DNA of 13,113 nucleotides from an uncultured Bordetella sp. (lineage in GTDB: Bacteria > Pseudomonadota > Gammaproteobacteria > Burkholderiales > Burkholderiaceae_B). The DNA lies in assembly GCA_937881145.1 (NCBI GenBank), contig CALGFL010000020.1, positions 1 through 13,113 of the forward strand, given 5' to 3'. Under the pieces are notes generated by a model. It was not told the origin of the DNA. It saw only the letters and a list, made by a program, of their open reading frames with translations, and made no database searches. Below are positions 1 to 13,113 of the stretch, in pieces; position 1 is the first letter of the stretch, and the number at the start of each line of letters is the position of its first letter. The translations under genes were made by a program, and so were the position numbers.

Positions 1-205
1 AAAACGTGGGGAACAACAGCGGGTTGCCCAGCCAGCGCGCGTAGATTTCCCAGATCAGCACGAGCACGAGAAACAGGACCAGCTTGCGCAGCCAGCCGAT
101 GCGATAGACGTTCTCCAAAGCCGATAGCGGCCGCTGGACCTCGGCAAGTTCGCAGCGGACCGGATCCAGGACGATCTCGGGGCGGTTCATGGCCTGCGCA
201 TTCAT
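1..205 (-). CDS. ABC transporter permease, NitT/TauT (SsuC/TauC-like) type, N-terminal part only
   Basis: This is the first 68 codons of an inner-membrane permease; the rest lies beyond the left edge. The ATG at 205-203 overlaps the TGA of the ATPase gene as ATGA, so the two are translationally coupled and belong to one operon. The visible protein has a polar, cytoplasmic leader of about 38 residues, then a hydrophobic segment (LVLFLVLVLIWEIYARW) that looks like the first membrane helix. It ends in GNPLLFPTF, close to the 'LLPsP' segment that commonly follows TM1 in BPD_transp_1 permeases of the nitrate/sulfonate/taurine importers. The partner ATPase is of the same class, which supports the call. 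The substrate cannot be told from this fragment. Confidence 0.72.
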   Translation of the reverse strand, partial: MNAQAMNRPEIVLDPVRCELAEVQRPLSALENVYRIGWLRKLVLFLVLVLIWEIYARWLGNPLLFPTF

Positions 206-1020
206 GCCCAGGCCTCTTCAAAAGCAAACAGCATTTCGTTGATGCGGGCTTCGAGCCGCGCCTGGCTGGCCGCGCCCATTTCGCCGGCGGGGATGCCGTT
301 CAGTTCGGCCTTGACCTGGCCCGGATGCGGCGACAGGAGCAAAATCCGCGTTCCGATCTTGACGGCCTCTTCGATGGAGTGCGTGACGAACATCACGGTG
401 ACGCGCGTATCGTCCCAAAGGCGCAGCAACTCGTCCTGCATCTTGCGGCGGGTCAACGCATCGAGCGCGGCAAAAGGCTCATCCATGAGCAGTACGTCGG
501 GCTCCATGGCCATGCCGCGAGCGATCGACACCCGTTGTTTCATTCCGCCCGACAGCATGTGGGGGTAACTGTCGCGGAAGACGCGCAAGCCCACCTTGTC
601 GATGTAATAAGCCGCCCTGTCGGCGGCCTGCGGCCCTTTCATGCGGCCACTGGCCTCGAGCGCGAACTCGACGTTCTGGCGCACCGTCTTCCAGGGCAGA
701 AGCTGGTCGAACTCCTGGAACACCATCATCCGGTCGGGGCCCGGCTCCAGGATCTCGCGCCCTTTCAAGCGGATGGCGCCTTGAGCGGGCCGGATGTAGC
801 CGCCCACCGCCTTGAGCAGCGAGGACTTTCCACACCCCGAAGGACCAAGCAGGATGTAGCGATCCGACGGATAAACCTTGAAGCTCACCTGCTGTGCCGC
901 AGTGATCAGGGACTGATCGGTCTTGTATTGCACCGTGACATCGTCGATTTCGAGCAGCGCAGCAGCCGGCGCGGACGTATCGGCCCGCGCACGGCGCGCA
1001 ACGGCGGCTGCGTCGTTCAT
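202..1020 (-). CDS. ABC transporter ATP-binding protein, NitT/TauT family
   Basis: A 272-residue ATPase that would drive import through the permease encoded just downstream. All nucleotide-binding motifs are intact: Walker A GPSGCGKS (59-66), Q-loop FQEFDQLLPWKTV with Gln102, signature LSGGMKQR (156-163), Walker B VLLMDE (176-181) and switch His214 in FVTHSIEEAV. The Q-loop with LLPW and the PHPG segment near 231-234 are typical of SsuB/TauB/NrtD-like ATPases for sulfonates, taurine, nitrate or aromatic acids. I chose the ATG at 1020 because a good Shine-Dalgarno AGGAGA lies on the minus strand at 1030-1025; the frame stays open further upstream, but into the divergent regulator region. A 20-residue Ala/Arg-rich tail precedes the first strand. 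Substrate is unknown; the solute-binding protein is not in the window. Confidence 0.9.
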   Translation of the reverse strand: MNDAAAVARRARADTSAPAAALLEIDDVTVQYKTDQSLITAAQQVSFKVYPSDRYILLGPSGCGKSSLLKAVGGYIRPAQGAIRLKGREILEPGPDRMMVFQEFDQLLPWKTVRQNVEFALEASGRMKGPQAADRAAYYIDKVGLRVFRDSYPHMLSGGMKQRVSIARGMAMEPDVLLMDEPFAALDALTRRKMQDELLRLWDDTRVTVMFVTHSIEEAVKIGTRILLLSPHPGQVKAELNGIPAGEMGAASQARLEARINEMLFAFEEAWA

Positions 1021-1104
1021 GTCGTCTCCTGCGTTTTTATAATCGTCAGCCGGTACTCTATTGACCGAACCTGTGCTGAATCTGACGAAGCGGTGATCGA
1101 CCCT
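1021..1104. promoter_or_regulatory. Divergent intergenic region between ABC transporter and two-component genes
   Basis: This 84-bp gap must hold the start signals of both the minus-strand transporter operon and the plus-strand regulator/kinase operon. A perfect TATAAT lies at 1038-1043 on the plus strand, 62 bp before the regulator ATG. The hexamer at the expected -35 distance (1015-1020, GTTCAT) is poor, so it would need an activator or is chance. The transporter Shine-Dalgarno AGGAGA is at 1030-1025 on the minus strand. No clear palindromic operator was seen. The close divergent arrangement is compatible with the response regulator binding here. Confidence 0.35.
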
Positions 1105-1770
1105 ATGCGCATACTCCTGGTGGAAGACGTGGCCGATGTGGCCGAAGCCATTGTTGCCTGCACGCAGCGCATGGGCCACGACACCGACTGGGAGCCGAAC
1201 GGCAAATGCGCGGCCGACCGCGTCACGGCCGACTTCTACGACCTGCTGATCCTGGACATCATGCTGCCGGACCTGGACGGCCTGTCGCTGCTCAGGCGCG
1301 TGCGCGACAGAAAGATCAGCACCCCGGTCCTCATGCTGACCGCGCTGGGGGAAATCGAGGAACGCGTCCAGGCGCTGGACATGGGGGCCAACGACTACCT
1401 GGTCAAGCCGTTCGATTTCCGCGAACTGGAAGCGCGCATCCGCGCACTGCTGCGGCAAGCCATAGGCCGCCCCACCAATGTGCTGGCCTGCGCGAATCTT
1501 ACGATCGACCTCAAGAGCCATACCGCCCAGCTGGACGGCAACGCCCTCGACCTGACGCGACGCGAGGTGATGCTGCTGGAGATCCTGGTCACCCGGCCGG
1601 GGCGCATCTTCAGCAAAAACGAACTGATCGACCGCCTGTTCAGCATCGACGAGAACCCCAATGCCAATACCGTGGAGCAGCACGTCGCGCGTCTGCGGAA
1701 AAAATTGACGGGCGCCCATTTCTCCATCCGCACGCTGCGCGGGCTGGGCTACCAGGTCATCGCGTCATGA
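1105..1770 (+). CDS. OmpR/PhoB-family response regulator (TctD-like)
   Basis: A 221-residue transcriptional regulator. The receiver domain (about 1-118) has the acidic pair Glu7-Asp8, phospho-acceptor Asp51 in LLILDIMLPDLDG, switch Thr79 and the conserved Lys101-Pro in YLVKPFDFREL. The DNA-binding part (about 126-221) is a winged helix of the OmpR/PhoB type, with LTRREVMLLEIL, the VEQHVARLRKKL recognition-helix region and the terminal TLRGLGYQV. ATG 1105 was chosen because the receiver begins there (MRILLVEDV). A GTG four codons upstream (1093) is an in-frame alternative; neither start has a strong Shine-Dalgarno. The stop overlaps the kinase start (ATGA at 1767-1770), so the pair is co-translated. 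The TctD label follows from the kinase type; the target genes are unknown, with the divergent ABC operon an obvious candidate. Confidence 0.92.
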   Translation: MRILLVEDVADVAEAIVACTQRMGHDTDWEPNGKCAADRVTADFYDLLILDIMLPDLDGLSLLRRVRDRKISTPVLMLTALGEIEERVQALDMGANDYLVKPFDFRELEARIRALLRQAIGRPTNVLACANLTIDLKSHTAQLDGNALDLTRREVMLLEILVTRPGRIFSKNELIDRLFSIDENPNANTVEQHVARLRKKLTGAHFSIRTLRGLGYQVIAS

Positions 1771-3137
1771 AGGTAGCGAAAAATTCGCTCTATACGCGCC
1801 TGGTGACCCGCACCGGAGCGATCCTCGCCATCAGCGCCGCCGTTTCGCTGGTGGCCATCTGGCTGGCCACCAACTACGCCGCCAGCCAGGCCTACGACAG
1901 GATTCTGACGAGCAAGGTCCTGCAGATCGCGGGAAGCATCTGGTATCAGAACAACGCAGTGAACGTCGATGTTCCCATCGCAGCCATTTCGGAACTTTCG
2001 CCGGATGACAAGACCTTCTACGCCGTGCTGGACACCAATGGCCGCACCATCGCCGGCGACATCAACTTCCGGCCGGATATTCCCTGGAACGCGCTCAAGA
2101 ACGGGCCCGTGCTGATCAGCGGCGCGTACGAGGGCCACCCGGTCAGGATCGCCATCGTCGGGCGGCGCATGCCTGTGGCGGGTCCGCGTCCTTGGGCGGT
2201 CGCCATGCTGGCCCAGACCACGAACGCCCGGCTTTCGTTCGCCCGGGATCTGACGGCCGACACGTTCATCGTCATCCTGGTCATGGGGATCCTGACCATC
2301 ATCGCAGCCATGTTCACCCTTTTTCAGGCGCTCTCGCCACTCAAGCGCATCGAGCAATCCTTGCGCAAGAGAGATCCGCTGGAGCTTTCTCCGCTGTCTC
2401 TGGAGGTGCCCGCCGAAATCCGCACACTGGTCGATACGCTCAACGGATTCATGCGGCGCCTGGCCGCCCACCAGGCCACCTCCCGACGGGTCATCGCCGA
2501 CGCGGCCCATCAGCTGCGCACGCCCGTGACGGCGCTGCTGTCGCAAATGGAGCTGCTGTCGACCCAGGCCGACGAGAACAGGAAACGGGCGCATCTTGCC
2601 CGGCTCCAGGTCTTGACCCGCGAGTTGGGAGCGCTGGTCAATCAGCTTATCCATCACGCCATGGTGCAGCAGCGGGCCCAGACCGCGCCGCATCGGCCCG
2701 TCGACCTCGCCGAGCTGGTCAAGGTCCAGATGACCGAGGCGCTGTCGGGTGGACCTGCCCGGGAAATCGACGTTTCCGTCGGTGTTCCCGACACCCCCTG
2801 CATTGTGGACGCGGACCCCACCACCCTGCGCGAGGCGATCAGGAATATTCTGCACAACGCCCTGCAATACGGGGCGCCGTCCTTGCTGCGCGTCGAGCTC
2901 GTGCGCCGCTCGCGCTACTGGGAGCTGCGGTTTATCGACGACGGGCCGGGTATCCCGCCCGAATTCTGGCGCCAGGTGCGAAAGCCGTTTTCCACGCGCA
3001 GCGGCGGTCGCGGCGGCGCCAGCCTGGGGCTCGCCATCGCTCAGGAAGTGATGACCGGCCACAGGGGGCGGCTGCAGTTCGCATTCAACGAGGACGGCCT
3101 GTTCATGGTGGTGCTGATTTTCCGGGCGAGCCGCTGA
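1767..3137 (+). CDS. Sensor histidine kinase, TctE-like (2CSK_N type)
   Basis: A 456-residue inner-membrane kinase, the cognate partner of the preceding regulator. A short cytoplasmic tail is followed by TM1 (about 17-37), a periplasmic domain (about 38-163) and TM2 (about 165-187). The stretch after TM1 (AYDRILTSKVLQIAGSI, then DVPIAAISEL and GRTIAGDINF) matches the 2CSK_N sensor domain of TctE-type kinases, whose known members sense tricarboxylates. The catalytic part is complete: phospho-acceptor His248 in ADAAHQLRTPVTAL, N-box NILHNALQYG with Asn360, G1 box DDGPGIP (391-397) and a G2 box GGASLGLAIAQ (416-426). The signal is not determinable. Only 41 bp separate its stop from the convergent regulator gene; a 4-bp GCGC hairpin at 3159-3170 is too weak to call a terminator. 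Confidence 0.92.
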   Translation: MKVAKNSLYTRLVTRTGAILAISAAVSLVAIWLATNYAASQAYDRILTSKVLQIAGSIWYQNNAVNVDVPIAAISELSPDDKTFYAVLDTNGRTIAGDINFRPDIPWNALKNGPVLISGAYEGHPVRIAIVGRRMPVAGPRPWAVAMLAQTTNARLSFARDLTADTFIVILVMGILTIIAAMFTLFQALSPLKRIEQSLRKRDPLELSPLSLEVPAEIRTLVDTLNGFMRRLAAHQATSRRVIADAAHQLRTPVTALLSQMELLSTQADENRKRAHLARLQVLTRELGALVNQLIHHAMVQQRAQTAPHRPVDLAELVKVQMTEALSGGPAREIDVSVGVPDTPCIVDADPTTLREAIRNILHNALQYGAPSLLRVELVRRSRYWELRFIDDGPGIPPEFWRQVRKPFSTRSGGRGGASLGLAIAQEVMTGHRGRLQFAFNEDGLFMVVLIFRASR

Positions 3138-3178: not shown

Positions 3179-3820
3179 TCAGGACGACTTGAAGCCGATC
3201 CGCTCCATGGTCCCGATGTGCAGACTCAACAGCTGCAGCGCGCGATCGGTCTTCTTCTCTTTCAATGCGCCGATGATCAGCATGTGGTCGTGGTCGGATC
3301 GCGGCTGCCAGCCGCGCTTCATGCCGGTCGAAAACAGATAGCGCGAGTTGGTCAGCTGCAATTGCCGCAGCACGGCGAGCAGGCGTGGCATGCCGCATTC
3401 GCCGGAAAGAACATCATGGAACAGATTGTTTGCCGCGTCCCACTCGGCCAGCGAGGCCGCTTGCGAGCAGGCCTCGTGCGCCTGCTCCAGGCGATCGATG
3501 TGCAGTGCGGTGATTCTCGGCGCGCTGTGGCGCAGCGCCAGGGTTTCCAGCGCCGCGCGCATCGCCACGTTTTCCTTGATGACCGCCGGATCGAGCAGGG
3601 TCACCCTCACGCCCCGGCGCGGCAAGGCGACCGCGAGTCCCTGCGCTTCCAGCTGCCGGAACGCCTCGCGCACCGGGACATGACTGGACTGGAATTCCTC
3701 CGCGACATGGTCCTGGCGCAACGCGGCGCCGCCGGCGATTTCGCCGCGCACGATGCGCGCGCGCAAGGTGTCGGCGATGCGCCCGACGATGGTCGGCGAG
3801 GCTGTTTTTATGCCGCTCAT
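3179..3820 (-). CDS. bioR: GntR-family (FCD/FadR-VanR) regulator, probable biotin repressor BioR
   Basis: A 213-residue GntR regulator. The N-terminal winged helix (about 10-75) contains ALRQDHVAEEFQSSHVPVRE and LEAQGLAVALPRRGVRV, the normal GntR pattern. The rest (about 80-205) is a helical FCD ligand domain; His135 (NNLFHDVL), His179 and His201 sit where FCD proteins usually bind a metal. The BioR assignment rests on context: it is divergent from P450-bioF-bioA-bioD, and the gap has an exact copy of the BioR operator consensus TTATMKATAA one base from its own start. BioR is known as a repressor of biotin genes in alphaproteobacteria. The start is ATG 3820; an in-frame TAG lies five codons upstream, and there is no Shine-Dalgarno, so the message may be leaderless. 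Autoregulation is inferred. If not BioR, it is still a GntR/FCD regulator with certainty. Confidence 0.82.
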   Translation of the reverse strand: MSGIKTASPTIVGRIADTLRARIVRGEIAGGAALRQDHVAEEFQSSHVPVREAFRQLEAQGLAVALPRRGVRVTLLDPAVIKENVAMRAALETLALRHSAPRITALHIDRLEQAHEACSQAASLAEWDAANNLFHDVLSGECGMPRLLAVLRQLQLTNSRYLFSTGMKRGWQPRSDHDHMLIIGALKEKKTDRALQLLSLHIGTMERIGFKSS

Positions 3821-3821
3821 T

Positions 3822-3838
3822 TTATAGATAATCTATGA
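3822..3838. promoter_or_regulatory. BioR operator, box 1 (with overlapping second half-site)
   Basis: TTATAGATAA at 3822-3831 matches the known BioR consensus TTATMKATAA at all ten positions. It is embedded in a perfect odd-length inverted repeat, ATAGAT-A-ATCTAT (3824-3836). A second, two-mismatch decamer (TAATCTATGA, 3829-3838) overlaps it by three bases. The box starts one base upstream of the bioR ATG, in the place where its promoter or ribosome site should be, which suggests tight autorepression. That functional reading is inference. Confidence 0.75.
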
Positions 3839-3909
3839 AAAAACTTATTGTTTGATGAAAAAACGCGAAGATAGAATCCGCCCAAGCAAAATTCTAGGCC
3901 TTTTAAATC

Positions 3910-3939
3910 TTGCTTTGGATTTTATCTATGAATCAGAAT
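3910..3939 (+). promoter_or_regulatory. Candidate promoter of the biotin operon with BioR box 2 in its spacer
   Basis: TTATCTATGA at 3922-3931 differs from the BioR consensus at one position (G instead of A at position 9). It lies in the 18-bp spacer between a TTGCTT (3910-3915) and a CAGAAT (3934-3939), a weak -35/-10 pair that would start transcription near 3946, about 30 bases before the preferred P450 start. A repressor bound there would block polymerase. An alternative weak pair, TTGTTT (3848-3853) and TAGAAT (3872-3877), lies between the two boxes. The operator box is the firmer part of this call; the promoter hexamers are poor. Box 1 and box 2 start exactly 100 bp apart. Confidence 0.5.
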
Positions 3940-3978
3940 GCCCTTGTCTTGGCCGGCCCCGGTGTGGCCGAACCGTGA
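3928..3978 (+). other. Possible 16-codon leader ORF overlapping the P450 start
   Basis: An ATG inside BioR box 2 opens a 16-codon frame (MNQNALVLAGPGVAEP) whose TGA overlaps the preferred P450 ATG as TGATG (3976-3980). Its third positions are mostly G or C, unlike the frame that the P450 reading would need upstream of 3978. It may be a leader peptide that couples translation, the true N-terminus of the P450 displaced by a frameshift, or chance. It has no Shine-Dalgarno. Confidence 0.25.
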
Positions 3979-5174
3979 TGCCGGACGGTTCTACAGCCGT
4001 GCGCGGCGGCATCTGCGGGCCGCAATGGAGCGAGGCTTATTGCGGCGGCGCATGGGTGCTGACCGGCTATGACGAGGTCATGGCGGCCCTGCGCGATCCG
4101 CGCTTCTCGGTCAGGCGCGCGGCGCGCTGGATCAACAGCGGCCTGAGCGGCGCGCAAGCATCGCCGTGCGCACAGCTGAAGTTCAAGCGCGTGTTTGCGC
4201 GTTCGCTGCTGTTTCTCGACGGCCGCGCGCACCGCCGTTTGCGCGGCGTGGTCCAGGTCGGTTTCAAACCGACCGATCTGCAGGGGCAGGCGCCTGCCAT
4301 CGCTGCCATCGCGGATCGATTGATCGCGCGAATCGACGCGCACGCCGGAGAATTCGATTTCGTGCAGGCATTTGCCCGCCCCTTGCCGGCCTTGGTAATC
4401 GCCAATCTGCTGGGGCTGGCGGAACGCGTGCCGGCCGAGTTCATCGATTGGTCGGCCGACATCGCCGCCTTTATCGGCAGCCCCACCCCGGACGCGCGGC
4501 AGACGCTCGCGGCGCAGCAGGCCCTGGCCGATATGTGCGATTTCTTCGCGCAAGCGATGGCCTGCAATGACGGCGCGGCCGCGCAGGGGCTGCTGGCGCG
4601 GATCGCCCTGGCGCGCGAGGCGCAGCGGATCAGCGGCGTCGAAGCGTTGGCGCAGTGCTGCACCCTGCTCTTCGCCGGCTACGAAACTACCCGCAATCTG
4701 CTGGGCAACGGCCTGTTGGCGCTGCTGCGGCATCCCGGCCAATGGGCTGCCTTGAAGGCCGCTCCCCAAGGCCTGCGCGGCGCCGTGCGCGAGATGCTGC
4801 GCTACGACAGTCCTGTGCAATACACGGGCAGGCGCCTGCTGGCCGATGTCCAGATCGGCGCAAAGCGTCTTCGCCGCGGCGACTTGGCGATCCTGCATAT
4901 CGGCGCGGCAAACCATGACCCGCGGCGCTTTTCGGATCCGGACCGTTTCGACATCGCGCGCGACGAAGGCAGCCATCTGTCTTTCGGACATGGTCCGCAC
5001 GTATGCCTGGGCGCGGCGCTGACGCAGTTGGAGGCCGAGATCGCCTTCGCCGCATTGATGCGCGCCATGCCCGGCGCGGCGCTCGCTTCCGCCCCTGCAG
5101 TCTGGCAGCGAAATGGCGCTTATCGCGCGCTGGAGCACCTTATTGTCCAGCCAGGGAGCAACCCCCATGCATGA
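3978..5174 (+). CDS. Cytochrome P450, BioI (CYP107H)-like, first gene of the biotin operon
   Basis: From ATG 3978 the protein has 398 residues, the normal size of a soluble bacterial P450 (Bacillus subtilis BioI is about 395). Family hallmarks: WVLTGYDEVMAALRDPRF (26-43), HRRLR (85-89), the I-helix oxygen-activation motif AGYETT (233-238), ExxR as EMLR (272-275) and the heme loop FGHGPHVCLG (336-345) with heme ligand Cys343. The segments around VIANLLGL, AANHDP and LSFGHG resemble BioI, which oxidatively cleaves long-chain acyl-ACP to pimeloyl-ACP. Position settles the likely role: its last 8 bases overlap bioF, whose substrate is the pimeloyl thioester. The frame is open upstream to ATG 3855, but that would add 41 basic and Cys-rich residues running through BioR box 2, so I prefer 3978. 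No Shine-Dalgarno precedes any start. The usual 'NPYxxYxxLR' N-terminal motif is missing in frame. A redox partner is not encoded here. P450 identity is certain; the biotin role is inferred. Confidence 0.88.
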   Translation: MPDGSTAVRGGICGPQWSEAYCGGAWVLTGYDEVMAALRDPRFSVRRAARWINSGLSGAQASPCAQLKFKRVFARSLLFLDGRAHRRLRGVVQVGFKPTDLQGQAPAIAAIADRLIARIDAHAGEFDFVQAFARPLPALVIANLLGLAERVPAEFIDWSADIAAFIGSPTPDARQTLAAQQALADMCDFFAQAMACNDGAAAQGLLARIALAREAQRISGVEALAQCCTLLFAGYETTRNLLGNGLLALLRHPGQWAALKAAPQGLRGAVREMLRYDSPVQYTGRRLLADVQIGAKRLRRGDLAILHIGAANHDPRRFSDPDRFDIARDEGSHLSFGHGPHVCLGAALTQLEAEIAFAALMRAMPGAALASAPAVWQRNGAYRALEHLIVQPGSNPHA

Positions 5175-6348
5175 TTTCGAGCAGGATCTGGCCGATCTCG
5201 CGGCACAAAGCCTGGCGCGCACGCGGCGCGTGGTGGCCGGCGCCCAGGGGCCGGTTCTGCAGGCCGACGGGCGGCAGTACCTGTCCTTCTGCAGCAACGA
5301 CTATCTCGGACTGGCGAATCATCCGCAGATCGTTGCCGCCTGCATGGCTGGCGCCCGGGCGTACGGCGTCGGGGCCGCAGCCTGCGCGCTGATCTGCGGC
5401 CACGGCACGGCGCACGAAACGCTGGAACACGAACTGGCGGCCTTCACCGGGTTGCCGCGCGCGCTTCATTTTTCCAACGGCTATATGGCCAATATCGGTA
5501 TCGTCGGCGCCTTGGTTGGCGCGGGCGATACGGTTTTCCTCGATCGCTTGAGCCATGCATCGCTGATCGACGGCGCGCGGCTCTCGGGAGCCGAACTGCG
5601 CGTCTTCCCGCATAACGACGTGGCGCGCCTGGAGCAGGTGCTGGCCCGCAGCAAGCGCGCGCGCAAGCTGGTCGTAACCGACGCGGTCTTCAGCATGGAC
5701 GGCGATCTGGCGCCGCTGCCCGAGCTGGCCGCGCTGTGCGAGCGTCACGGCGCCTGGTTGCTGGTGGACGACGCCCACGGCTTCGGCGTACTCGGGCCCG
5801 AGGGTCGTGGCAGTCTGGCGCATTTCGGCTTGCGCGCGCCGCACGTGGCGTACATGGGCACGCTGGGCAAGGCGGCCGGCGTGGCGGGCGCGTTCGTGGC
5901 GGGCGAAGCGAACCTCGTCGAATGGATCATGCAGCGCGCCAGAACCTATATGTTCACGACCGCCCATCCACCGCTGCTCGCGGCAGCCGCTTCGGCCAGC
6001 CTCGCCGTCATCGCGCGCGACCAGTGGCGGCGCGAACGGCTGCGCGACCTGGCCGCCCGGCTCCGCCAGGGACTGGAGGGGCTGCCGTGGCGACTGCTGC
6101 CGTCGGCCACCGCCATCCAGCCGCTCATCATCGGTGGCAACGCCGCCGCGCGCGCACTGATGCAGACCTTGCGCGACGAGGGAATCTGGGTGCCGGCGAT
6201 CTGTCCGCCGACCGTGCCCAAGGGAACGGCGCGCCTGCGCATCAGCCTGTCCGCACTGCATACGCGGGAGCACGTGGAACGCCTGATCCAGGTGCTGCGG
6301 CAGGTGGCCAGGGCATGGGCGGATCATCCAGAGGGCGCGATGCAATGA
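5167..6348 (+). CDS. bioF: 8-amino-7-oxononanoate synthase BioF
   Basis: A 393-residue PLP enzyme of the alpha-oxoamine synthase family. It condenses pimeloyl-ACP (or -CoA) with L-alanine to 8-amino-7-oxononanoate, the first ring-building step of biotin synthesis, in the cytoplasm. Visible motifs are SFCSNDYLGLANHP (40-53), the Gly-rich GVGAAACALICGHGTAH (67-83), HFSNGYMAN (101-109), LDRLSHASLIDGARLSGA (125-142), the PLP-ring Asp/His in LVDDAHGFGVLG (199-210) and the Schiff-base Lys235 in GTLGKAAGVAGAF. The ATG at 5167 follows a good Shine-Dalgarno AGGGAG (5153-5158) within the P450 3' end; an in-frame ATG at 5113 lies inside the P450 and is unlikely. It overlaps P450 by 8 bp and bioA by 4 bp (ATGA). 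Related KBL (glycine C-acetyltransferase) is the alternative by sequence alone, but the operon decides for BioF. Confidence 0.95.
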   Translation: MHDFEQDLADLAAQSLARTRRVVAGAQGPVLQADGRQYLSFCSNDYLGLANHPQIVAACMAGARAYGVGAAACALICGHGTAHETLEHELAAFTGLPRALHFSNGYMANIGIVGALVGAGDTVFLDRLSHASLIDGARLSGAELRVFPHNDVARLEQVLARSKRARKLVVTDAVFSMDGDLAPLPELAALCERHGAWLLVDDAHGFGVLGPEGRGSLAHFGLRAPHVAYMGTLGKAAGVAGAFVAGEANLVEWIMQRARTYMFTTAHPPLLAAAASASLAVIARDQWRRERLRDLAARLRQGLEGLPWRLLPSATAIQPLIIGGNAAARALMQTLRDEGIWVPAICPPTVPKGTARLRISLSALHTREHVERLIQVLRQVARAWADHPEGAMQ

Positions 6349-7688
6349 CCGCGCCGCACTCGCAAGACCTCGCGGCGCGCAGCCTGCGCAGCGTCTGGCA
6401 TCCCTGCACCCAGATGCGCCGGCATGAAAGCGTGCCGCCGATTGCCGTCGCCCGAGGCCACGGACCCTGGCTTTACGACGCCGACGGGCGCCGCTATCTG
6501 GATGCGATCAGCTCATGGTGGGTCAACCTTTTCGGGCATACCAATGCGCGCATCAACCGCGCGCTGATCGATCAGCTGGAACGGCTGGAGCACGCCATGT
6601 TGGCGGGCTTCACGCACGAGCCCGTGGTCGCGTTGTCGGAAAAACTTTCCGCGCTCACCGGTCACGCGCTGGGCCGCTGCTTCTATGCCTCGGACGGTGC
6701 TTCGGCGGTGGAAATCGCGCTCAAGATGAGCGTGCATGCCTGGCGCAACGCCGGCCATGCACGCAAGAACGAGTTCATCTGCCTGGCCGGCGGCTACCAC
6801 GGCGAAACGCTAGGCGCGCTGGGCGTCACCGATACCGCGCTGTTTCGCGCGCCCTATGAAGCCATGCTCAGGCCGGCGCATATCGCCGCCTCGCCCGATG
6901 CCCGCTACACCCTGCCGGGCGAAGGCCCGGGCGCCGCCGCCGCGCGGGCGCTGGCGGATATGGAACAGCTGCTGCAGCGCCGCCACGGCCGCATCGCTGC
7001 CGTCATCGTCGAGCCGCTGGTGCAGTGCGCGAACGGCATGGCCATGCATGATGCCGACTATATGGCGGGCCTGCGTGCCCTGTGCGACACCTATGGCGCG
7101 CACCTGATCGCCGACGAGATCGCAGTCGGCTGCGGTCGCACCGGCACCTTCTTCGCCAGCGAACAGTCCGGCGTCTGGCCGGATCTGCTGTGCCTGTCCA
7201 AAGGCATTACCGGCGGATACCTGCCGCTTTCGCTGGTGATGGCGCAAGAGCATATCTACCAGGCGTTCTACGACGACGACCTGCACAGGGGGTTCCTGCA
7301 TTCGCATTCCTATACCGGTAATCCGCTGGCTTGCCGCGCCGCGCTGGAGACGCTGGCGATCTTCGAGGACGAGCAGGTGCTGGAACGCAACCGGGGCTTC
7401 GCACAGACGCTGAGCGCGGCGCTGCAGCCCTTGGCGCAAGACCCGCGCGTCGCCCACTTCCGTCGTACCGGTACCATCTGGGCCTGCGACGTCGTCTTTG
7501 ACGATGACGCGGCCGCGGCCGGCTTTTCGCGCCGTTTCGCGCTCGAGGCGGCGCGCCGCGAATTGCTGCTGCGCCCCATCGGCAACACGCTCTATCTGAT
7601 GCCGCCTTATATCCTGGACGCGCAAGAGGCGGATTGGCTGGCCCGGCGCGTCCACGACGTCTTCACCGCCGTAATGGAGGGAGCATGA
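6345..7688 (+). CDS. bioA: Adenosylmethionine-8-amino-7-oxononanoate aminotransferase BioA
   Basis: A 447-residue class III PLP aminotransferase that converts 8-amino-7-oxononanoate to 7,8-diaminopelargonate. Motifs: WHPCTQM (18-24), SSWWVNLFGH (57-66), YASDGASAVEIALKM (114-128), GGYHGETLGALGV (149-161), ADEIAVGCGRTG (256-267) with Asp257 for the PLP nitrogen, Schiff-base Lys286 in CLSKGITGGYLP, and HSHSYTGNPLAC (319-330). The C-terminal LRPIG...LYLMPPY matches the substrate Arg region of E. coli BioA. The overall pattern (WVNxFGH, HSxxYTGN, FYDD) is that of Pseudomonas-type BioA, and parts also resemble the lysine-using B. subtilis enzyme, so the amino donor is probably but not certainly S-adenosylmethionine. 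The E. coli Tyr17 position is Cys21. The start overlaps the bioF stop by ATGA, and the stop overlaps bioD the same way. Confidence 0.95.
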   Translation: MTAPHSQDLAARSLRSVWHPCTQMRRHESVPPIAVARGHGPWLYDADGRRYLDAISSWWVNLFGHTNARINRALIDQLERLEHAMLAGFTHEPVVALSEKLSALTGHALGRCFYASDGASAVEIALKMSVHAWRNAGHARKNEFICLAGGYHGETLGALGVTDTALFRAPYEAMLRPAHIAASPDARYTLPGEGPGAAAARALADMEQLLQRRHGRIAAVIVEPLVQCANGMAMHDADYMAGLRALCDTYGAHLIADEIAVGCGRTGTFFASEQSGVWPDLLCLSKGITGGYLPLSLVMAQEHIYQAFYDDDLHRGFLHSHSYTGNPLACRAALETLAIFEDEQVLERNRGFAQTLSAALQPLAQDPRVAHFRRTGTIWACDVVFDDDAAAAGFSRRFALEAARRELLLRPIGNTLYLMPPYILDAQEADWLARRVHDVFTAVMEGA

Positions 7689-8401
7689 ACGAGGCCGCGC
7701 GGCCATCCGGCCTGTTCGTGACCGGAACCGATACCGGCGTAGGCAAGACGCTGGTGGCTGCGGCGTTGATACGCCTGCATGCCGAAAGAGGCTGGCGCAC
7801 GGCCGGCATGAAACCGGTGGCTTCGGGGGCTTTCCATGACGGCACGATTTGGCGCAATGAAGATGCCGATGCCTTGCGTTCGGCCGCCAACGTCGCGCTG
7901 CCCGAACCGCTCCTGAACCCCTATCTGTTCAAGAGCGCAACGGCCCCGCACATTGCCGCCGCGCAGGAAGGCATCGCCATCGATGCGGACCATCTGGAGC
8001 GTTGCTATCGCGACATCGGCAAGCTCGCCGATGTCGTGGTGGTCGAGGGGGCAGGAGGCTTCATCGTGCCGCTGGATGCCGCCGGCAACAGCGACGACTT
8101 CGTCGCGCGGCTGGGCTTGCCGGTCGTCCTGGTCGTGGGAATCCGGCTGGGCTGCATCAATCATGCCCTGCTGACGCAGCAGGCCATTCTGGCCAAGCCG
8201 CTGCGGCTGGCGGGCTGGGTCGCCAACCGGATCGATCCGGACGAGCCTTATGCCCAGGCCATGATCGACAGCCTGCGCCAGCGCATCCATGCTCCCCTGC
8301 TGGGGCAGCTTCCCTGGTCGCCGGTTATGGACGCCCGTCAGGCGGCGCGTCTGCTCGATCCCCTTGCACTGGGACTTTCTCGGGCGGTCGCCGTCCCTTG
8401 A
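7685..8401 (+). CDS. bioD: Dethiobiotin synthetase BioD
   Basis: A 238-residue ATP-dependent carboxylase that closes the ureido ring of dethiobiotin from 7,8-diaminopelargonate, CO2 and ATP. The P-loop is FVTGTDTGVGKT (11-22) with Lys21. MKPVASG (42-48) supplies the second conserved lysine (Lys43). The VEGAGGFIVPL segment (120-130) holds Glu121 and the Gly-rich loop of the family. Length is typical (E. coli BioD about 225). A strong Shine-Dalgarno GGAGGGA precedes the ATG inside the bioA 3' end, and the start overlaps the bioA TGA by 4 bp. It is the last gene of the operon: bioB does not follow. No convincing terminator was found after it; a GAAACC/GGTTTC inverted repeat at 8403-8416 has a two-base loop and no T run. 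Confidence 0.95.
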   Translation: MNEAARPSGLFVTGTDTGVGKTLVAAALIRLHAERGWRTAGMKPVASGAFHDGTIWRNEDADALRSAANVALPEPLLNPYLFKSATAPHIAAAQEGIAIDADHLERCYRDIGKLADVVVVEGAGGFIVPLDAAGNSDDFVARLGLPVVLVVGIRLGCINHALLTQQAILAKPLRLAGWVANRIDPDEPYAQAMIDSLRQRIHAPLLGQLPWSPVMDARQAARLLDPLALGLSRAVAVP

Positions 8402-8554
8402 TGAAACCACGGTTTCCCGCTTGTCCGCGCGCGCCGCCACAGCGTCGTTCGGCGGGTTGCCGGGCGGATTGCTCCAGGTCGTAGTCGAGCTCAATTCGAG
8501 CAGCGCGTCGGTGTCCATGTCCGGCACGCCGGTTTGACCTCTTGCGATTTTCAT
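8402..8554 (-). pseudogene. Possible remnant of a minus-strand gene between bioD and the LysE gene
   Basis: The gap between bioD and the exporter gene has no plus-strand gene. On the minus strand a frame from ATG 8554 (or the internal ATG 8518, reading MDTDALLELSSTTTW) is open with third positions strongly G/C-biased, as in real genes here. It has no stop before it runs antisense into bioD, so there is no credible 3' end. I do not recognise the product. 'MDTDALL' recalls the first residues of many LysR regulators, which often sit divergent from LysE-type exporters, but nothing after it fits a LysR helix-turn-helix. It may be a truncated 5' end, or chance coding bias. Confidence 0.2.
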
Positions 8555-8593
8555 GGATAACTTGCCGGGTATGCCTTCTTTGAGGAATCCGGA

Positions 8594-9226
8594 ATGTCTC
8601 TGCATGCCTGGCTCGCCTTTGTCGGCGCGAGCATCATCCTTCTGCTGATCCCCGGACCGACCATTCTGCTGGTCATCGGCGATACGCTGGCCAACCGCGG
8701 CCGATCCGCCTGGAGCACGATCGCGGGCGTTGCCGCGGGCGACACAACGTCGATGTCGATTTCGCTTGCCGGCGCGGGCGCCCTGCTCGCGGCGTCGGCC
8801 GCGGCCTTCACCGTGCTCAAACTCATCGGCGGCACGTATCTGGTCTATCTGGGCGCGAAGTCCATTCTGGGCGCGCGGCGCCTGCGCGATGAGACGGCGC
8901 AGACCGCGTTGCCGATGCCGGGAAAGTACGCAAGCCGGCGCTTCGTGTCGGCCTGGACCGTGACCGCGCTCAATCCCAAGAGCATCGTTTTCTTCGTCGC
9001 ATTCGCGCCCCAGTTCATTGCGGCAGACCACAGTTTCGTATCGCAGTGCGCCATTCTGCTGCCGACTTTCGTCCTGCTCGCGTCCGCCAACGCGGCCATG
9101 TATGCCCTGGCGGCCAGGCGGCTTTCGACCCGCCTGACCAGCGCGGCCGCGCAGCGGCGCTTCGGCTACGCCGGCGGTGCGGTGCTGCTCGGCGCGGGCG
9201 CGATCACGCTCGGCATGCGGGCTTGA
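8594..9226 (+). CDS. LysE/RhtB-family amino-acid exporter
   Basis: A 210-residue, very hydrophobic inner-membrane protein with about six predicted helices. Family marks are the early LLIPGPTILLVIG (18-29), the Gly-rich TIAGVAAGD (42-50), LKLIGGTYLVYLGAKSI (75-91) and the LNPKS motif (126-130) followed by IVFFVAFAPQFI, the usual LysE/RhtB/CadD pattern. Known relatives export lysine/arginine, homoserine/threonine or other small amino acids; the substrate here is not readable. The ATG at 8594 has a Shine-Dalgarno GAGGA at 8582-8586. The stop is 4 bp before the beta-lactamase start, so the two are probably co-transcribed. No divergent regulator survives upstream, only the dubious remnant at 8402-8554. 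Confidence 0.9.
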   Translation: MSLHAWLAFVGASIILLLIPGPTILLVIGDTLANRGRSAWSTIAGVAAGDTTSMSISLAGAGALLAASAAAFTVLKLIGGTYLVYLGAKSILGARRLRDETAQTALPMPGKYASRRFVSAWTVTALNPKSIVFFVAFAPQFIAADHSFVSQCAILLPTFVLLASANAAMYALAARRLSTRLTSAAAQRRFGYAGGAVLLGAGAITLGMRA

Positions 9227-9230
9227 CGGC

Positions 9231-10040
9231 ATGGCCGCACGCACCCTTTTTCTTGTCCTTGCGGCAAGCTTGATCGGCTTTGCTCAACCGGTGCAGGCCA
9301 GGACGATCTGCACCCTCGTCGTCGACGCAAAAACAGGCAAGACCGTGGCCGAACAAGGCGATTGCGCGACGCGCGTAACGCCGGCTTCGACCGCCAAGAT
9401 CGCGTTCGCCGTAATGGGCTACGACGCCGGTTTTCTCAAGACCGAGCACGATCCGACGCTGCCGTACAAGCCCGGCTACGTGGACTGGGGCGGCGCGGCC
9501 TGGCGCCAGCCGACCGATCCGGTGCGCTGGCTCAAGTACTCGGTCGTCTGGTTCTCGCAGCAGGTCACGCATGCGCTGGGCGAAATGGCGCTGCACGACT
9601 ACGCGGCGAAATTGGGCTACGGCAACGCCGATTTTTCCGGCGATCCGGGCAAGAAGAACGGCCTGGAGCGCGCGTGGATCGCCTCTTCGCTGAAGATCTC
9701 GCCGCGAGAGCAAATCGCTTTTCTGACCAAGCTCGTGAACCGGCAACTCCCGGTCAGCACGCATGCCATCGACATGACGCTGAACATCGTGGAAAAGCAT
9801 CCGGTACAGGACGGCTGGACCGTGCACGGCAAGACCGGCATGGCCTATCCGCGCAAGCCCGACTACACCTTCGACGAGGATCACCCCTGGGGCTGGTTCG
9901 TCGGTTGGGCCGAAAAAGACGGCCGCGTCGCGGTCTTTGCCCGGCTGGTCCAGGACGAAAAGAAAATGCCCGGCACCGCCGGCAACCGCACCCGCGATGC
10001 CATGTATGCTGAATTGCCCACGCTATTGCGCGGCATGTGA
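9231..10040 (+). CDS. Class D (OXA-type) beta-lactamase
   Basis: A 269-residue periplasmic serine beta-lactamase or close relative. The N-terminal signal peptide (hydrophobic 5-18, predicted cut after AQPVQA near residue 24) is followed by the class D motifs: active-site PASTAK with Ser53 and Lys56, WLKYSVVWFSQ with the S-x-V triad at 104-106, YGN (130-132), a Trp at 149 (AWIASSLKIS) corresponding to the one that protects the carbamylated lysine, and HGKTG (199-203). DWGGAAWRQPTDPVRW and PGKKNGLERAWI closely resemble the layout of Achromobacter OXA-114. Odd point: the first motif reads S-T-A-K where OXA enzymes nearly always have S-T-F-K. No strong Shine-Dalgarno; the start 4 bp after the lysE stop suggests translational coupling. 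Whether it hydrolyses beta-lactams is not shown by sequence alone. Confidence 0.88.
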   Translation: MAARTLFLVLAASLIGFAQPVQARTICTLVVDAKTGKTVAEQGDCATRVTPASTAKIAFAVMGYDAGFLKTEHDPTLPYKPGYVDWGGAAWRQPTDPVRWLKYSVVWFSQQVTHALGEMALHDYAAKLGYGNADFSGDPGKKNGLERAWIASSLKISPREQIAFLTKLVNRQLPVSTHAIDMTLNIVEKHPVQDGWTVHGKTGMAYPRKPDYTFDEDHPWGWFVGWAEKDGRVAVFARLVQDEKKMPGTAGNRTRDAMYAELPTLLRGM

Positions 10041-10074
10041 CGCGCGCGCAACCCTTTATTCACGAGACCAACTC

Positions 10075-10707
10075 ATGAGCGAATTCTCCGCCGACATCTA
10101 CACCGAGCCTTCCGGACTCGATTTCGACACACTGAAAAACCTCGGCCCGCTGTCGGGCATGGCCGGCATATGGCAAGGTACGCGCGGGCTGGACGTCAAG
10201 CCCAAGGCCGAAGGCCCCAGGAAACAGGCCTTCGTCGAACGTATCGAGCTGCAGCCCATTGATCCCCAGACCAACGGGCCGCAGCTTTTCTACGGCCTGC
10301 GCTATCACACGCACATGGTCAAGCCTGATCAGGTCAAGACCTATCACGATCAGGTCGGCTACTGGCTCTGGGAGCCGGCGACCGGCGCGATCATCCACTC
10401 CTTGACCATTCCGCGCGGCCAGACCGCGATGGCGGGCGGCACGGCGTCCGCGGATGCCAAGGAATTCGAGCTCGTGGCCACGCGCGGCATCGAGACCTAC
10501 GGCATCTGTTCGAACCCTTTTCTCGAACACGCCTTCAAGACCGTCGAGTTCCGCATTCACGTAACGATCAACCCGGACGGAACCTGGTCCTACGAGCAGG
10601 ACACCGTGATGATGATTCGCGGCCAGGAGGAGCCCTTCCATCACACCGATCGCAACACGCTCAGCAAGATCGGCGAGCCCACGCCCAATCCCATGGCGGT
10701 GAAATAG
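10075..10707 (+). CDS. Heme-binding beta-barrel (nitrobindin/FABP-like) protein
   Basis: A 210-residue soluble protein without signal peptide. The N-terminal region has LGPLSGMAGIWQGTRGLD (23-40), the 'LxpLxGxWxGxG' signature of the THAP4/nitrobindin-type heme-binding domain, here with Thr-Arg-Gly after the tryptophan strand. Repeated beta-strand segments follow (FVERIELQPI, LFYGLRYHTHM, VGYWLWEPATGAIIHSL, FELVATRG, FRIHVTINPDGTWSYEQDT), and a C-terminal PFHHTDRNTLSKI (187-199) puts His189/His190 where nitrobindins carry the proximal heme histidine. It appears somewhat longer than minimal nitrobindins. Known members bind ferric heme and NO or isomerise peroxynitrite; a role here is inferred only. 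It is 34 bp after the beta-lactamase with a weak GAGA ribosome site, so it may share that transcript. A GGCCG/CGGCC inverted repeat (10707-10722) overlaps its stop without a T run. Confidence 0.7.
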   Translation: MSEFSADIYTEPSGLDFDTLKNLGPLSGMAGIWQGTRGLDVKPKAEGPRKQAFVERIELQPIDPQTNGPQLFYGLRYHTHMVKPDQVKTYHDQVGYWLWEPATGAIIHSLTIPRGQTAMAGGTASADAKEFELVATRGIETYGICSNPFLEHAFKTVEFRIHVTINPDGTWSYEQDTVMMIRGQEEPFHHTDRNTLSKIGEPTPNPMAVK

Positions 10708-10760
10708 GCCGATCTGGCGGCCTGGCGCGCCGGGTGTCCGCGGCGCAACCGGGCTTATTC

Positions 10761-10789
10761 ATGATTTCGTCGTCGGCGTTTTGTAAGAT
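10761..10789 (+). promoter_or_regulatory. Candidate promoter of the cation-efflux gene
   Basis: ATGATT (10761-10766) and TAAGAT (10784-10789) are 17 bp apart, matching the consensus at 3/6 and 4/6 positions. This is the only spaced pair I see in the 138-bp gap before the transporter; it would start transcription near 10796, just ahead of the tandem repeat. Weak on its own. Confidence 0.25.
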
Positions 10790-10801
10790 ACGGCTGGCGA
10801 A

Positions 10802-10837
10802 CAGACTTCAACGCAGACTTCAACGCAGACTTCAACG
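10802..10837 (+). repeat. Three perfect 12-bp tandem repeats in the leader of the cation-efflux gene
   Basis: CAGACTTCAACG occurs three times head to tail with no mismatch (10802-10813, 10814-10825, 10826-10837). The array ends 8 bp before the ATG at 10846, where a Shine-Dalgarno would be expected and none is visible. The frame of the downstream gene is open through the array but has no start codon in it, so the repeat is most likely untranslated leader. The unit length keeps frame. Confidence 0.9.
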
Positions 10838-10845
10838 GATTCCCC

Positions 10846-11859
10846 ATGGCCGGCCACGACCACTCCAAGCACGACGACCATGACCATCATGGGCATGCGC
10901 ACCATGACCATGGCCACTCGCACCGCGGGCACGACCATGGCCACGCCGGCCACGATCATCTGCACGGCATCACGGATCAGCGCCGCATAGGCTGGGCCTT
11001 CGTCGTCATCGCGATATTCATGGTGGTGGAGATCGTCGGCGGCATGGTCTCGGGTTCGCTGGCGCTGCTGGCCGACGCCGGCCACATGCTCAGCGACACG
11101 GCGGCCTTGGGGTTCAGCTGGACGGCGATCCAGTACGGCAAGCGCCCCGCCACGTCGCAGCTGTCCTATGGTTATAAACGGCTCGAAGTGCTGGCGGCCT
11201 TCGTCAATGGTTGCGCCCTTTTCGTCATCGCGGCCTGGATCGTGATCGAAGCATTCAGCCGTTTCGCCGCCCCGGTGCCCGTGGTGGGCAAGACCATGCT
11301 GGCGGTCGCCTTCGCCGGCCTGGCCGCCAATATCGCGGCCTTCATGCTGCTGCACGGCGGCAACCGCGAAAACCTCAACATGCGAGGCGCCTGGCTGCAC
11401 GTGATGGGCGACATGCTGGGCTCGGTAGCCGCCATCGTGGCCGCAGTCGTCATTCTTGCCACCGGCTGGATGCCCATCGATCCCATCCTGTCCATCGTGG
11501 TGGCGATCATTATTCTCAAGAGCGCCTGGGGCATCGTCAAATCGTCGGCCCACATCCTGCTCGAAGGCACGCCGGCGGGCGTCACCCTGGCCGACATCAA
11601 GGCCGATCTCGAAACCCACGTGCCCGAGATCCGCGATGCGCATCACATCCATGCCTGGTCCATCACGGGCGAGCAGCATATGGTGACTTTGCACGTGCTG
11701 CCCGCCAGCGGCGTAGCCGCGCGCGATGCGGTGAGCGCGGTACAGCGCCGCCTGGCTGTGCGCTTCGGCATCGATCACGCCACGGTGCAGGTCGAAGAAG
11801 GCGTATGCCTCGATCTGCCGGACCGCGATAGCACGAGTGCCTGCTGTGCAAACCATTGA
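10846..11859 (+). CDS. Cation diffusion facilitator, CzcD/ZitB-like Zn(II)/Cd(II)/Co(II) exporter
   Basis: A 337-residue inner-membrane metal/proton antiporter. Residues 1-40 carry 18 histidines (HDHSKHDDHDHHGHAHHDHG and onward), a cytoplasmic metal-binding tail. Six helices follow (roughly 48-66, 70-95, 115-136, 149-170, 185-207, 212-233). The transport site is seen as the H-x3-D pairs of TM2 (LADAGHMLSD, His80/Asp84) and TM5 (HVMGD, His185/Asp189), the arrangement of CzcD/ZitB-type zinc exporters. A cytoplasmic C-terminal domain (about 240-337) includes DAHHIHAWSITGEQHMVTLHV, the usual metal-binding dimer fold, and the protein ends in a Cys-Cys (SACCANH). ATG 10846 starts the His tail; there is an in-frame stop at 10762-10764 and no other start between. 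It is likely monocistronic or shares a transcript with SURF1 43 bp downstream. Metal specificity is inferred. Confidence 0.95.
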   Translation: MAGHDHSKHDDHDHHGHAHHDHGHSHRGHDHGHAGHDHLHGITDQRRIGWAFVVIAIFMVVEIVGGMVSGSLALLADAGHMLSDTAALGFSWTAIQYGKRPATSQLSYGYKRLEVLAAFVNGCALFVIAAWIVIEAFSRFAAPVPVVGKTMLAVAFAGLAANIAAFMLLHGGNRENLNMRGAWLHVMGDMLGSVAAIVAAVVILATGWMPIDPILSIVVAIIILKSAWGIVKSSAHILLEGTPAGVTLADIKADLETHVPEIRDAHHIHAWSITGEQHMVTLHVLPASGVAARDAVSAVQRRLAVRFGIDHATVQVEEGVCLDLPDRDSTSACCANH

Positions 11860-11867
11860 TTTACAGG

Positions 11868-11884
11868 CAGCCGATGGCCGGCTG
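11868..11884 (+). terminator. Weak hairpin after the cation-efflux gene
   Basis: CAGCCG-ATGGC-CGGCTG forms a 6-bp stem with a 5-base loop 9 bp after the stop, followed by TTCATT rather than a T run. It could attenuate transcription into SURF1, but as a Rho-independent terminator it is poor. Confidence 0.25.
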
Positions 11885-11902
11885 TTCATTCTGGAATAGA
11901 CC

Positions 11903-12670
11903 TTGAACGCATCTTCCGATTCTTGCGCCGGGCCCCGTCCGGTGCGCCTGGCTGTCATCGCCCTGATTTCGCTGCTGCTCTTCGCGACGTTTTGTTCCCT
12001 GGGTGTCTGGCAGGTTCATCGCCGCGCGTGGAAGCTGGACCTGATAGCCAAGGTCGATAGCCGCGTGCATCGTCCGGCCATCGAAGCGCCGCTGCGGCCG
12101 CAATGGCCGGCCGTGAACGCGGCGGACGACGAGTATCTGCACGTTCAGGCCAGCGGCACTTTTTTGTACGATAAGCAGACCCTGGTGCAGGCAGTCACCG
12201 ACTTGGGCAGCGGATTCTGGGTGCTGACGCCGCTGCGGCGCGACGACGGCGAACTGGTGATGGTCAACCGCGGCTTCGTGCTGCCCGAATGGCGCAAAGA
12301 GGCAAGCGCCGCGCCCGCCTCTTCCACCCGGGTCACGGTGGCCGGACTGCTGCGCATGGACGAGCCCAAGGGCGTCTTCCTGCGGCACAACGACGCGGCC
12401 ATCGACCTTTGGTACACCCGCGATCTGCAGGGCATCGCCGCCAAGCGCGGCCTGGGGCCGGTGGCGCCGTATTTCATCGATATGCAGGCCGGTCCGGGCG
12501 CGCAGCCCGACCCCAGGACGGCCCCGGTACCGGGGCTGACGCAGGTCCATTTTCCCAACAACCACATGAGCTACCTGGTCACCTGGTTCGCGCTGGCGGC
12601 GATGACGCTGGCGGGCGCGGGCCTGCTCTGGCGCGACGAATGGCGCCGGGGCAGCCGGCTCAAGAAATAA
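11903..12670 (+). CDS. SURF1-family cytochrome oxidase assembly protein
   Basis: A 255-residue membrane protein of the SURF1/Shy1 family, which helps insert heme into heme-copper oxidases. The topology is the family's two-helix hairpin: TM1 (about 15-34) followed directly by the CSLGVWQVHRRAWKLDLI motif (31-48), a periplasmic domain with GFWVLTPLRRDDGELVMVNRGFV (104-126) and WYTRDL, then HFPNNHMSYLVTWFALA (216-232) leading into TM2 and a short basic tail. The start is TTG 11903: an in-frame TAG at 11897-11899 rules out anything earlier, and no ATG exists before residue 120 in frame. A GGAA (11893-11896) is the only ribosome-site candidate. SURF1 genes usually sit with oxidase subunits (ctaG-ctaE or cyo operons); here it follows a metal exporter. 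Its last 11 bp overlap the convergent gene. Confidence 0.9.
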   Translation: MNASSDSCAGPRPVRLAVIALISLLLFATFCSLGVWQVHRRAWKLDLIAKVDSRVHRPAIEAPLRPQWPAVNAADDEYLHVQASGTFLYDKQTLVQAVTDLGSGFWVLTPLRRDDGELVMVNRGFVLPEWRKEASAAPASSTRVTVAGLLRMDEPKGVFLRHNDAAIDLWYTRDLQGIAAKRGLGPVAPYFIDMQAGPGAQPDPRTAPVPGLTQVHFPNNHMSYLVTWFALAAMTLAGAGLLWRDEWRRGSRLKK

Positions 12671-13113
12671 GCGTTTCTTCGCGAAAGAGCTGCGCGATGA
12701 AATGCCGCCGCGCGGCCCGGTAGACATCGCTGTGCAAGCCGTGATCGCGCGCGGCGCTAAAGAGCTGGCGCTGATGCGAGCGCGCTGCGAGAAAAGGCAG
12801 CGGGGGCCCCAGTGTCTGCGTTTGTGCGGATCCGGCGCAAACGCCGGCTGCTTTTTCCAGCATGAGATGCAACCGCTCTTCCCATAGCAGCAGGCTGGCG
12901 AGCTTGGCCAGTTTGCTGCGCGGATGATTATGCGCGGGCAGGATCAGCGCAGGCGCCTCCTTGAGCCAGTCCTTCATCTGCTCGGCCGACAACAGCGGGC
13001 AGACCGCTGCCCCCTGGACGGCATCGGCTTGGAGCACGGCGACGGCTTCGAGCATGTCAGCGCTGTCCACGCCCTCGACCAGAACTATCTTGCCCAGCGT
13101 GTGGCCCAGGCGC
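12660..13113 (-). CDS. C-terminal part of an EAL-domain (c-di-GMP phosphodiesterase-like) protein
   Basis: The gene enters from the right edge and ends with TGA at 12662-12660; 150 codons are visible. Residues just inside the edge (RLGHTLGKIVLVEGVDSADM, then LQADAVQGAAVCPLLSAEQMKDWL) match the end of an EAL domain: the 'VVAEGVE' strand with its catalytic-loop Glu, and the 'xxxVQG' Gln-Gly followed by the final helix. The EAL, NN and DDFG-type motifs lie outside the window, so activity cannot be judged. About 100 residues follow that are not EAL. They are mostly helical, with scattered His and Cys (LPAHNHPRSKLAKLASLLLW, HQRQLFSAARDHGLH, VYRAARRHF); I do not recognise this extension, though a small ligand or metal-binding helical domain is conceivable. 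The gene overlaps SURF1 tail to tail by 11 bp. Confidence 0.68.
   Translation of the reverse strand, partial: RLGHTLGKIVLVEGVDSADMLEAVAVLQADAVQGAAVCPLLSAEQMKDWLKEAPALILPAHNHPRSKLAKLASLLLWEERLHLMLEKAAGVCAGSAQTQTLGPPLPFLAARSHQRQLFSAARDHGLHSDVYRAARRHFIAQLFREETLIS

Follow-up and report, generated by a model that had tools for sequence, protein, structure and literature searches.

The closest described counterpart of the enzyme considered here is BioI (CYP107H1) of Bacillus subtilis, a cytochrome P450 encoded in a biotin operon. Passages of PMC7645780 present BioI as an enigma: B. subtilis does without it, and the BioF of that species cannot use its product. A 2025 paper calls BioI unique to B. 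subtilis in the sections bearing on it (PMC12915131); these sections also describe BioE, which is likewise proposed to cut long acyl-acyl carrier protein (acyl-ACP) oxidatively. BioE is a diiron enzyme and BioZ a condensing enzyme, whereas the enzyme described below is a P450. The regulator BioR is termed unique to alphaproteobacteria in passages of PMC5343134 and is placed exclusively in some alphaproteobacteria in passages of PMC4554459. We analyzed a 13,113-nt stretch of DNA from an uncultured Bordetella sp. (contig CALGFL010000020.1; hereafter the window, meaning the whole stretch), in which a bioR gene faces a P450-bioF-bioA-bioD operon. Comparison with related loci makes it likely that this BioI-like P450 makes pimeloyl-ACP without BioC and BioH or BioW, under a betaproteobacterial BioR and within a probably transferred block of the Herbaspirillum type.

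The preliminary description of this DNA had placed a GntR/FCD gene opposite four overlapping biotin genes, and open reading frames together with family matches confirmed this layout (Table 1). The genes overlap at the P450-bioF junction (stop 5174, ATG at approximately 5167), the bioF-bioA junction (stop 6348, start 6345), and the bioA-bioD junction (stop 7688, start 7685). Neither the P450 nor the GntR protein scored at or above the cut-off of any NCBIfam model. The P450 most likely starts at ATG 3978, where its close homologs begin, rather than at TTG 3852; a frameshifted N-terminus, suspected from ATG 3928, was dropped for the same reason. One correction is required: the operon lacks bioB, although bioB heads the operon in the closest relatives.

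The P450 has the features of a heme-thiolate P450, with the columns of the ExxR motif, the I-helix Thr, and the FGxGxHxCxG Cys-ligand motif invariant in 21 sequences. It belongs to the same broad P450 group as BioI, and its gene lies inside a biotin operon, as the BioI gene does. In a profile search of solved structures, BioI was the top match (291.9 bits), followed by PksS (280.3 bits) and TamI (272.3 bits). In a Foldseek comparison of the AlphaFold2 model (mean predicted local distance difference test score, 82.2), P450BioI-ACP complexes made up 12 of the top 13 matches, the remaining one being CalO2 (best match, 6.1e-24; next protein, 2.9e-22). On this evidence of profile and predicted fold, the P450 appears to work like BioI.

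Relatives of the P450 were collected in one scan with a 21-P450 alignment, which gave 137 stretches, of which 111 were confirmed and the best 80 kept. Arrangements were called with script identity thresholds, adjacency meaning within 400 bp on the same strand. By this definition, bioB, bioF, bioA, or bioD adjoined the P450 gene in 66 of the best 80 loci, which are related and partly on short contigs and are thus not independent. Several gene orders were found. The most frequent was bioR facing bioB-P450-bioF-bioA-bioD (16 loci: 14 Herbaspirillum, one Curvibacter, and one Robbsia), followed by bioA-bioF-bioD-bioB-P450 (14 loci), P450-bioF-bioA-bioD-bioB (12 loci), bioA-bioF-bioD-P450 (8 loci), and bioB-P450 (6 loci); another 12 loci had other orders, two of them with bio genes on the opposite strand only. 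The differing orders argue for repeated re-association or selection. The 14 loci without a same-strand bio neighbor were scattered inside the P450 tree (5 changes; 0 of 500 shuffles as low). Candidatus Pandoraea novymonadis, with a genome of 1.2 Mb, retains both P450-bioF-bioA-bioD and bioB, and passages of PMC5632650 describe this organism as prototrophic for all vitamins; the main texts of PMC5632650 and PMC8406214 never use the word P450.

Two alphaproteobacteria, Devosia elaeis (L036) and Mesorhizobium norvegicum (L039), bear the betaproteobacterial P450 type, the former within the whole P450-bioF-bioA-bioD-bioB order, which suggests transfer between classes. Two well-supported P450 subclades had no bio neighbors in reach (L055, L063, L067, L069, and L088, Massilia; L080, L083, L084, L085, and L087). 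Nested among biotin-linked P450s, both have perhaps been reassigned.

The BioR consensus, reportedly proposed by Rodionov and Gelfand in 2006, is said to be TTATMKATAA. By this consensus, boxes lie ahead of both bioR and the bio operon, and the operators announced in the preliminary description are indeed in the shared gap: box 1 matches exactly, and box 2 differs at one position. Only 0.09 matches were expected in the window, and two boxes occurred in 0 of 200 shuffles. In the whole bin, the exact pattern was found three times vs. twice for a reversed control pattern; of the three sites, only the one at bioR had the asymmetric form (TTATAGATAA/TTATCTATAA). In the BioR-bearing relatives G151, G154, G163, and G168, the asymmetric form was, by coordinates, confined to the bioR locus; G013, a same-genus genome without the P450-bioFAD operon, had three asymmetric-form sites elsewhere. 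Exact boxes were present in 14 of the 16 BioR loci vs. 1 of the 64 other loci, in that one far from the P450, and a pair of boxes (at most one mismatch) spaced 92–100 bp was found in 14 of the 16.

Among the best 120 homologs listed, identity of the regulator was 68–86% in named Herbaspirillum, 66% in Robbsia, and 53–55% in Bradyrhizobium. Two Bradyrhizobium plasmids carry a 52% identical GntR gene adjoining bioB-panD-bioF-bioD-bioA, with boxes in the gap beside it (exact in one plasmid, differing at one position in the second). From its identity to these plasmid genes and its position beside bio genes, the GntR/FCD protein is taken as orthologous to alphaproteobacterial BioR. Its identification as BioR thus gained support from these bioB-neighboring homologs and from the boxes conserved in Herbaspirillum-type loci. 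The locus resembles the alphaproteobacterial BioR regulon in having a GntR/FCD protein beside bio genes and boxes in the bioR gap; it differs in that BioR faces a P450-bioFAD operon and in that the organisms are betaproteobacteria. A literature search, mostly without subscription journals, returned no paper that treats Herbaspirillum BioR or a BioI of Comamonadaceae and none on-topic for a P450 in Herbaspirillum biotin biosynthesis; among the titles listed in broader searches, none dealt with such a system. In Herbaspirillum sp. alder98 the BioR regulon is split: bioR facing bioB, with two exact boxes, is on its own contig (L131), and P450-bioFAD is on a separate contig with its own one-mismatch box (L009).

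The host genome is a 3.0-Mb bin of 547 contigs (77% complete). Positions 8533–13,112 matched a 19-kb stretch of G013 in pieces (82–90% nucleotide identity, blastn), and proteins of the right half of the contig were 71–94% identical to those of G013 in synteny, with G009 syntenic in part. Contamination by a foreign contig was rejected because the right flank is syntenic with the genus backbone. Left of 8533, there was no nucleotide match in the 19-kb G013 stretch, the upstream part of which encodes relatives of the left-flank response regulator and kinase at only 50% and 35% protein identity. The P450 was found in 0 of 14 same-genus genomes at E 1e-60. Six of these 14 had bioF at 405 bits or more, and eight had just a relative of 337–362 bits (among them G009, which is 73% complete). 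In five of the six bioF genomes, a BioC::BioD fusion in one open frame lies beside bioF and bioA (L096 in G002, L098 in G005, L100 in G008, L101 in G007, and L129 in G003); in G005 a gene judged BioH-like by eye lies in between, preceding the fusion. The sixth, G004, has bioA-bioF-bioD (L169, 6660–9984) with no P450 at E 1e-60 and no BioC recognized beside the cluster. The other members of the host genus that we examined mostly use BioC, to judge from gene content, or are without a strong bioF. This same-genus BioC-BioH type shares the later steps BioF, BioA, and BioD with the window, but its bioF, bioA, and bioD are 35–41% identical to those of the window, BioC is present, and there is no P450. 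The biotin block of the window is of the Herbaspirillum type and was probably acquired by transfer.

The gap between bioR and the P450 could be aligned with the Herbaspirillum bioR-bioB gap through the second box and was divergent beyond it. No bioB was found in the window (tblastn); bioB is present on contig C11 of the same bin, a contig with no BioR box even when one mismatch was allowed. The metagenome protein P0002 reads through a similar bioB-less stretch upstream of its P450, so the loss of bioB is not a quirk of this assembly. To judge from these alignments, the arrangement is not special to the host and is the Herbaspirillum arrangement minus bioB.

Other sources of pimeloyl-ACP were sought in 40 genomes, consisting of the host and the 39 behind 39 of the 80 loci, hand-picked to span the tree and including two in which the P450 has no bio neighbor (L040 and L088). 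BioW, which B. subtilis has, was found in none of the 40, and the same search detected it in B. subtilis. Canonical BioC was likewise not recognized: one of the 40 exceeded the BioC cut-off, a Pandoraea bin in which the match falls inside the ComF-neighbor clade described next, and sub-cut-off matches were inspected in part. With 66 of 80 loci bio-adjacent, these counts support the proposal that the P450 is a pimeloyl source replacing or supplementing BioC and BioH.

Counting every BioC-profile match as BioC was abandoned, because scores of the ComF clade (68–189 bits) overlap those of in-cluster BioC of the host genus (159–170 bits). As score fails to separate the two, neighbors, motifs, and a tree were used. 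The gene behind the sub-cut-off matches that we inspected adjoins comF and trmL, and mostly gpsA (L095, L097, L099, L102, L107, L109, L111, L135, L136, and L137). A tree was built from 32 hand-picked sequences; its 20 ComF-type rows grouped together as a single clade (100/100), next to five BioC of the order that exceed the cut-off. Each of the 12 other BioC rows (these five, another five from bio clusters, and those of G037 and G071) had the N-terminal Tyr and Gln and the QW motif, whereas the N-terminal Tyr or Gln was present in 0 of 13 ComF-type rows with letters there, and QW in 1 of 20 (Robbsia). The 40 genomes include eleven of the Comamonadaceae type; in all seven copies inspected from these, S-adenosylmethionine (SAM) motif I was absent from the whole frame. 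In G001 the paralog is kept beside comF in a genome with no bioF over 345 bits; it thus does not track biotin synthesis. With SAM motif I lost in Comamonadaceae-type genomes and the gene still recognizable, the paralogs of this clade (for example, L095, 3148–4080) seem to have a role other than that of BioC.

A number of observations weigh against a P450 that supplies pimeloyl-ACP unaided, and most concern BioC. The cut-off was exceeded in 36 of 150 genomes of relatives vs. 2 of 91 genomes of the host's family, so that the 1 of 40, taken alone, does not set the P450 genomes apart and is less telling. The real in-cluster BioC of the host genus also falls under the cut-off; together with the family background, this means that the cut-off alone decides nothing. 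Moreover, 83 of the 91 family genomes had neither the P450 nor BioC over the cut-off, and therefore the family must often rely on BioC under the cut-off or on another route, or be auxotrophic. In the host itself, the BioC search returned only the ComF-neighbor type and weaker matches, in a bin that is 77% complete; BioH, which would be of no use to the BioC-BioH route without BioC, lay outside the search. The paralog keeps SAM motif I in Herbaspirillum, Collimonas, and the host, so that in Herbaspirillum the P450 may only supplement. The G004 cluster, with neither P450 nor adjacent BioC (best BioC-profile match, 138.7 bits, on another contig), indicates that a pimeloyl enzyme is not required within a cluster of this kind.

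The main rival explanation, a working ComF-type BioC in Herbaspirillum, draws on these points. The ComF-neighbor methyltransferase would be a diverged BioC that makes pimeloyl-ACP with an unlinked BioH-like esterase, and the P450 would be a mere helper, the part that BioI seems to play in B. subtilis. Its clade groups with the five over-cut-off BioC of the order (97/97), one of its members exceeds the BioC cut-off, the SAM motif is intact in the three groups just named, and the best BioC matches of most family genomes have the length and score of the ComF type (some checked by neighbors). However, the gene coexists with in-cluster BioC in G002, G005, G008, and G088, is retained in G001 without a strong bioF, and has lost SAM motif I in every inspected P450-bearing Comamonadaceae-type copy. 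We consider this explanation unlikely, although it is the strongest of the alternatives.

Further counterpoints concern the P450 itself. Its identity to BioI is 34% over 368 residues, which is within the range for the group's other P450s (33–37%) and falls short of the CYP107H subfamily, for which the rule is over 55% identity. In a single-sequence search, 8W6Z was level with BioI, and in a tree with five outgroup proteins, BioI was on a long branch with the outgroup. No bio gene was in reach at 12 of the 80 loci, with two more having them on the opposite strand only, and of the 150 genomes in the set of relatives, only 7, host included, had the P450. No sigma-70-like promoter was found by a simple scan. 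With 2–13 occurrences per genome vs. 2–9 for the reversed control, the full box pattern did not exceed the control in most of the genomes scanned. Its number therefore carries no weight; what counts as evidence is the location of the asymmetric form. Finally, BioI is dispensable in B. subtilis according to passages of PMC7645780 and PMC12915131, whereas the Comamonadaceae-type P450 genomes inspected show no other recognized pimeloyl enzyme (BioZ and BioE were not searched). Some of these points fit a P450 that has a role in biotin metabolism with a substrate other than acyl-ACP, for instance by oxidizing free fatty acids to pimelate or by modifying a biotin precursor; the unexceptional identity to BioI and the P450 loci without any bio neighbor would be expected. 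We find this improbable, since BioW, which would activate free pimelate, was missing from all 40 genomes and BioI bound to acyl-ACP filled 12 of the top 13 fold matches. A chance neighborhood or a misbinned or misjoined contig, which the fragmented bin and the absence of the P450 from the 14 same-genus genomes might suggest, is very improbable, given the synteny of the right contig half with G013 and partly with G009, the bioB-less stretch shared with P0002, a 95% identical BioR (P0121) for which the longest contig is given as 17,035 bases, just as for P0002, and the biotin linkage of most P450 loci.

In the likely explanation, in which the P450 makes pimeloyl-ACP under BioR, an ample supply of biotin or a biotin-related signal would lead BioR to bind the two boxes, which lie approximately 100 bp from each other in the shared gap, and to repress the operon and its own gene. 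The P450, with unlinked electron-transfer partners, would oxidize long-chain acyl-ACP and cleave it at C7–C8 to give pimeloyl-ACP. The BioF encoded in the operon would accept this ACP-bound chain and condense it with alanine. BioA and BioD would then lead to dethiobiotin, and the bioB product, encoded elsewhere (contig C11), to biotin. The P450 would thus replace BioC plus BioH, and BioW would not be needed. The preliminary description was right on content and is probably right on function.

More widely, part of the Burkholderiales probably starts biotin synthesis with the P450 only, in places under BioR. We lean slightly toward a stronger form, in which much of Herbaspirillum, Collimonas, and Comamonadaceae begins biotin synthesis mainly by a stand-alone P450 route that is independent of BioC and BioH, of BioW, and of BioZ. 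Together with BioR, this route would pass from lineage to lineage as a compact cassette, able to give or restore biotin synthesis in one step. If so, BioI-type chemistry would be a major pathway, with natural BioI systems that depend on their P450, and P450-only lineages would let oxidative pimeloyl-ACP synthesis be tested directly as an essential step. The first biotin step would be filled in P450-bearing Burkholderiales, and BioR would be extended to betaproteobacteria, whose BirA, like that of alphaproteobacteria, has reportedly lost its DNA-binding domain (passages of PMC5343134).

Table 1 Features of the biotin locus in the window
Feature	Positions	Strand	Basis
bioR, GntR/FCD regulator, 213 amino acids	3179..3820	-	PF00392 and PF07729 matches
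BioR-type box 1, TTATAGATAA, exact, adjoins bioR start codon	3822..3831		Pattern scan
BioR-type box 2, TTATCTATGA, one mismatch, 100 bp from box 1	3922..3931		Pattern scan
Former bioB-entry stretch, without bioB coding sequence	3932..3977	+	Gap alignment, tblastn
Cytochrome P450, 398 amino acids, proposed BioI-like pimeloyl-ACP former	3978..5174	+	PF00067
bioF	5167..6348	+	TIGR00858, 467.7 bits (cut-off 426.45)
bioA, 7,8-diaminopelargonic acid (DAPA) aminotransferase	6345..7688	+	TIGR00508, 507.5 bits (cut-off 405)
bioD, dethiobiotin synthase	7685..8401	+	TIGR00347, 149.8 bits (cut-off 83.3)
Synteny breakpoint; genus backbone (LysE-type gene onwards) from approximately 8533	8402..8533		blastn vs. 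G013

Left of the operon, at 202–3137 of the window, an ABC ATPase gene faces genes for a response regulator and a histidine kinase (the latter two recognized by eye); the best NCBIfam match of the ATPase was of the taurine type, under its cut-off. To the right, in the genus backbone, lies a class D beta-lactamase-like gene (9228–10,040, plus strand). The OXA subfamily models shown for this gene were all under their cut-offs, and its match to NF000270 reached 351.9 bits (cut-off 280).

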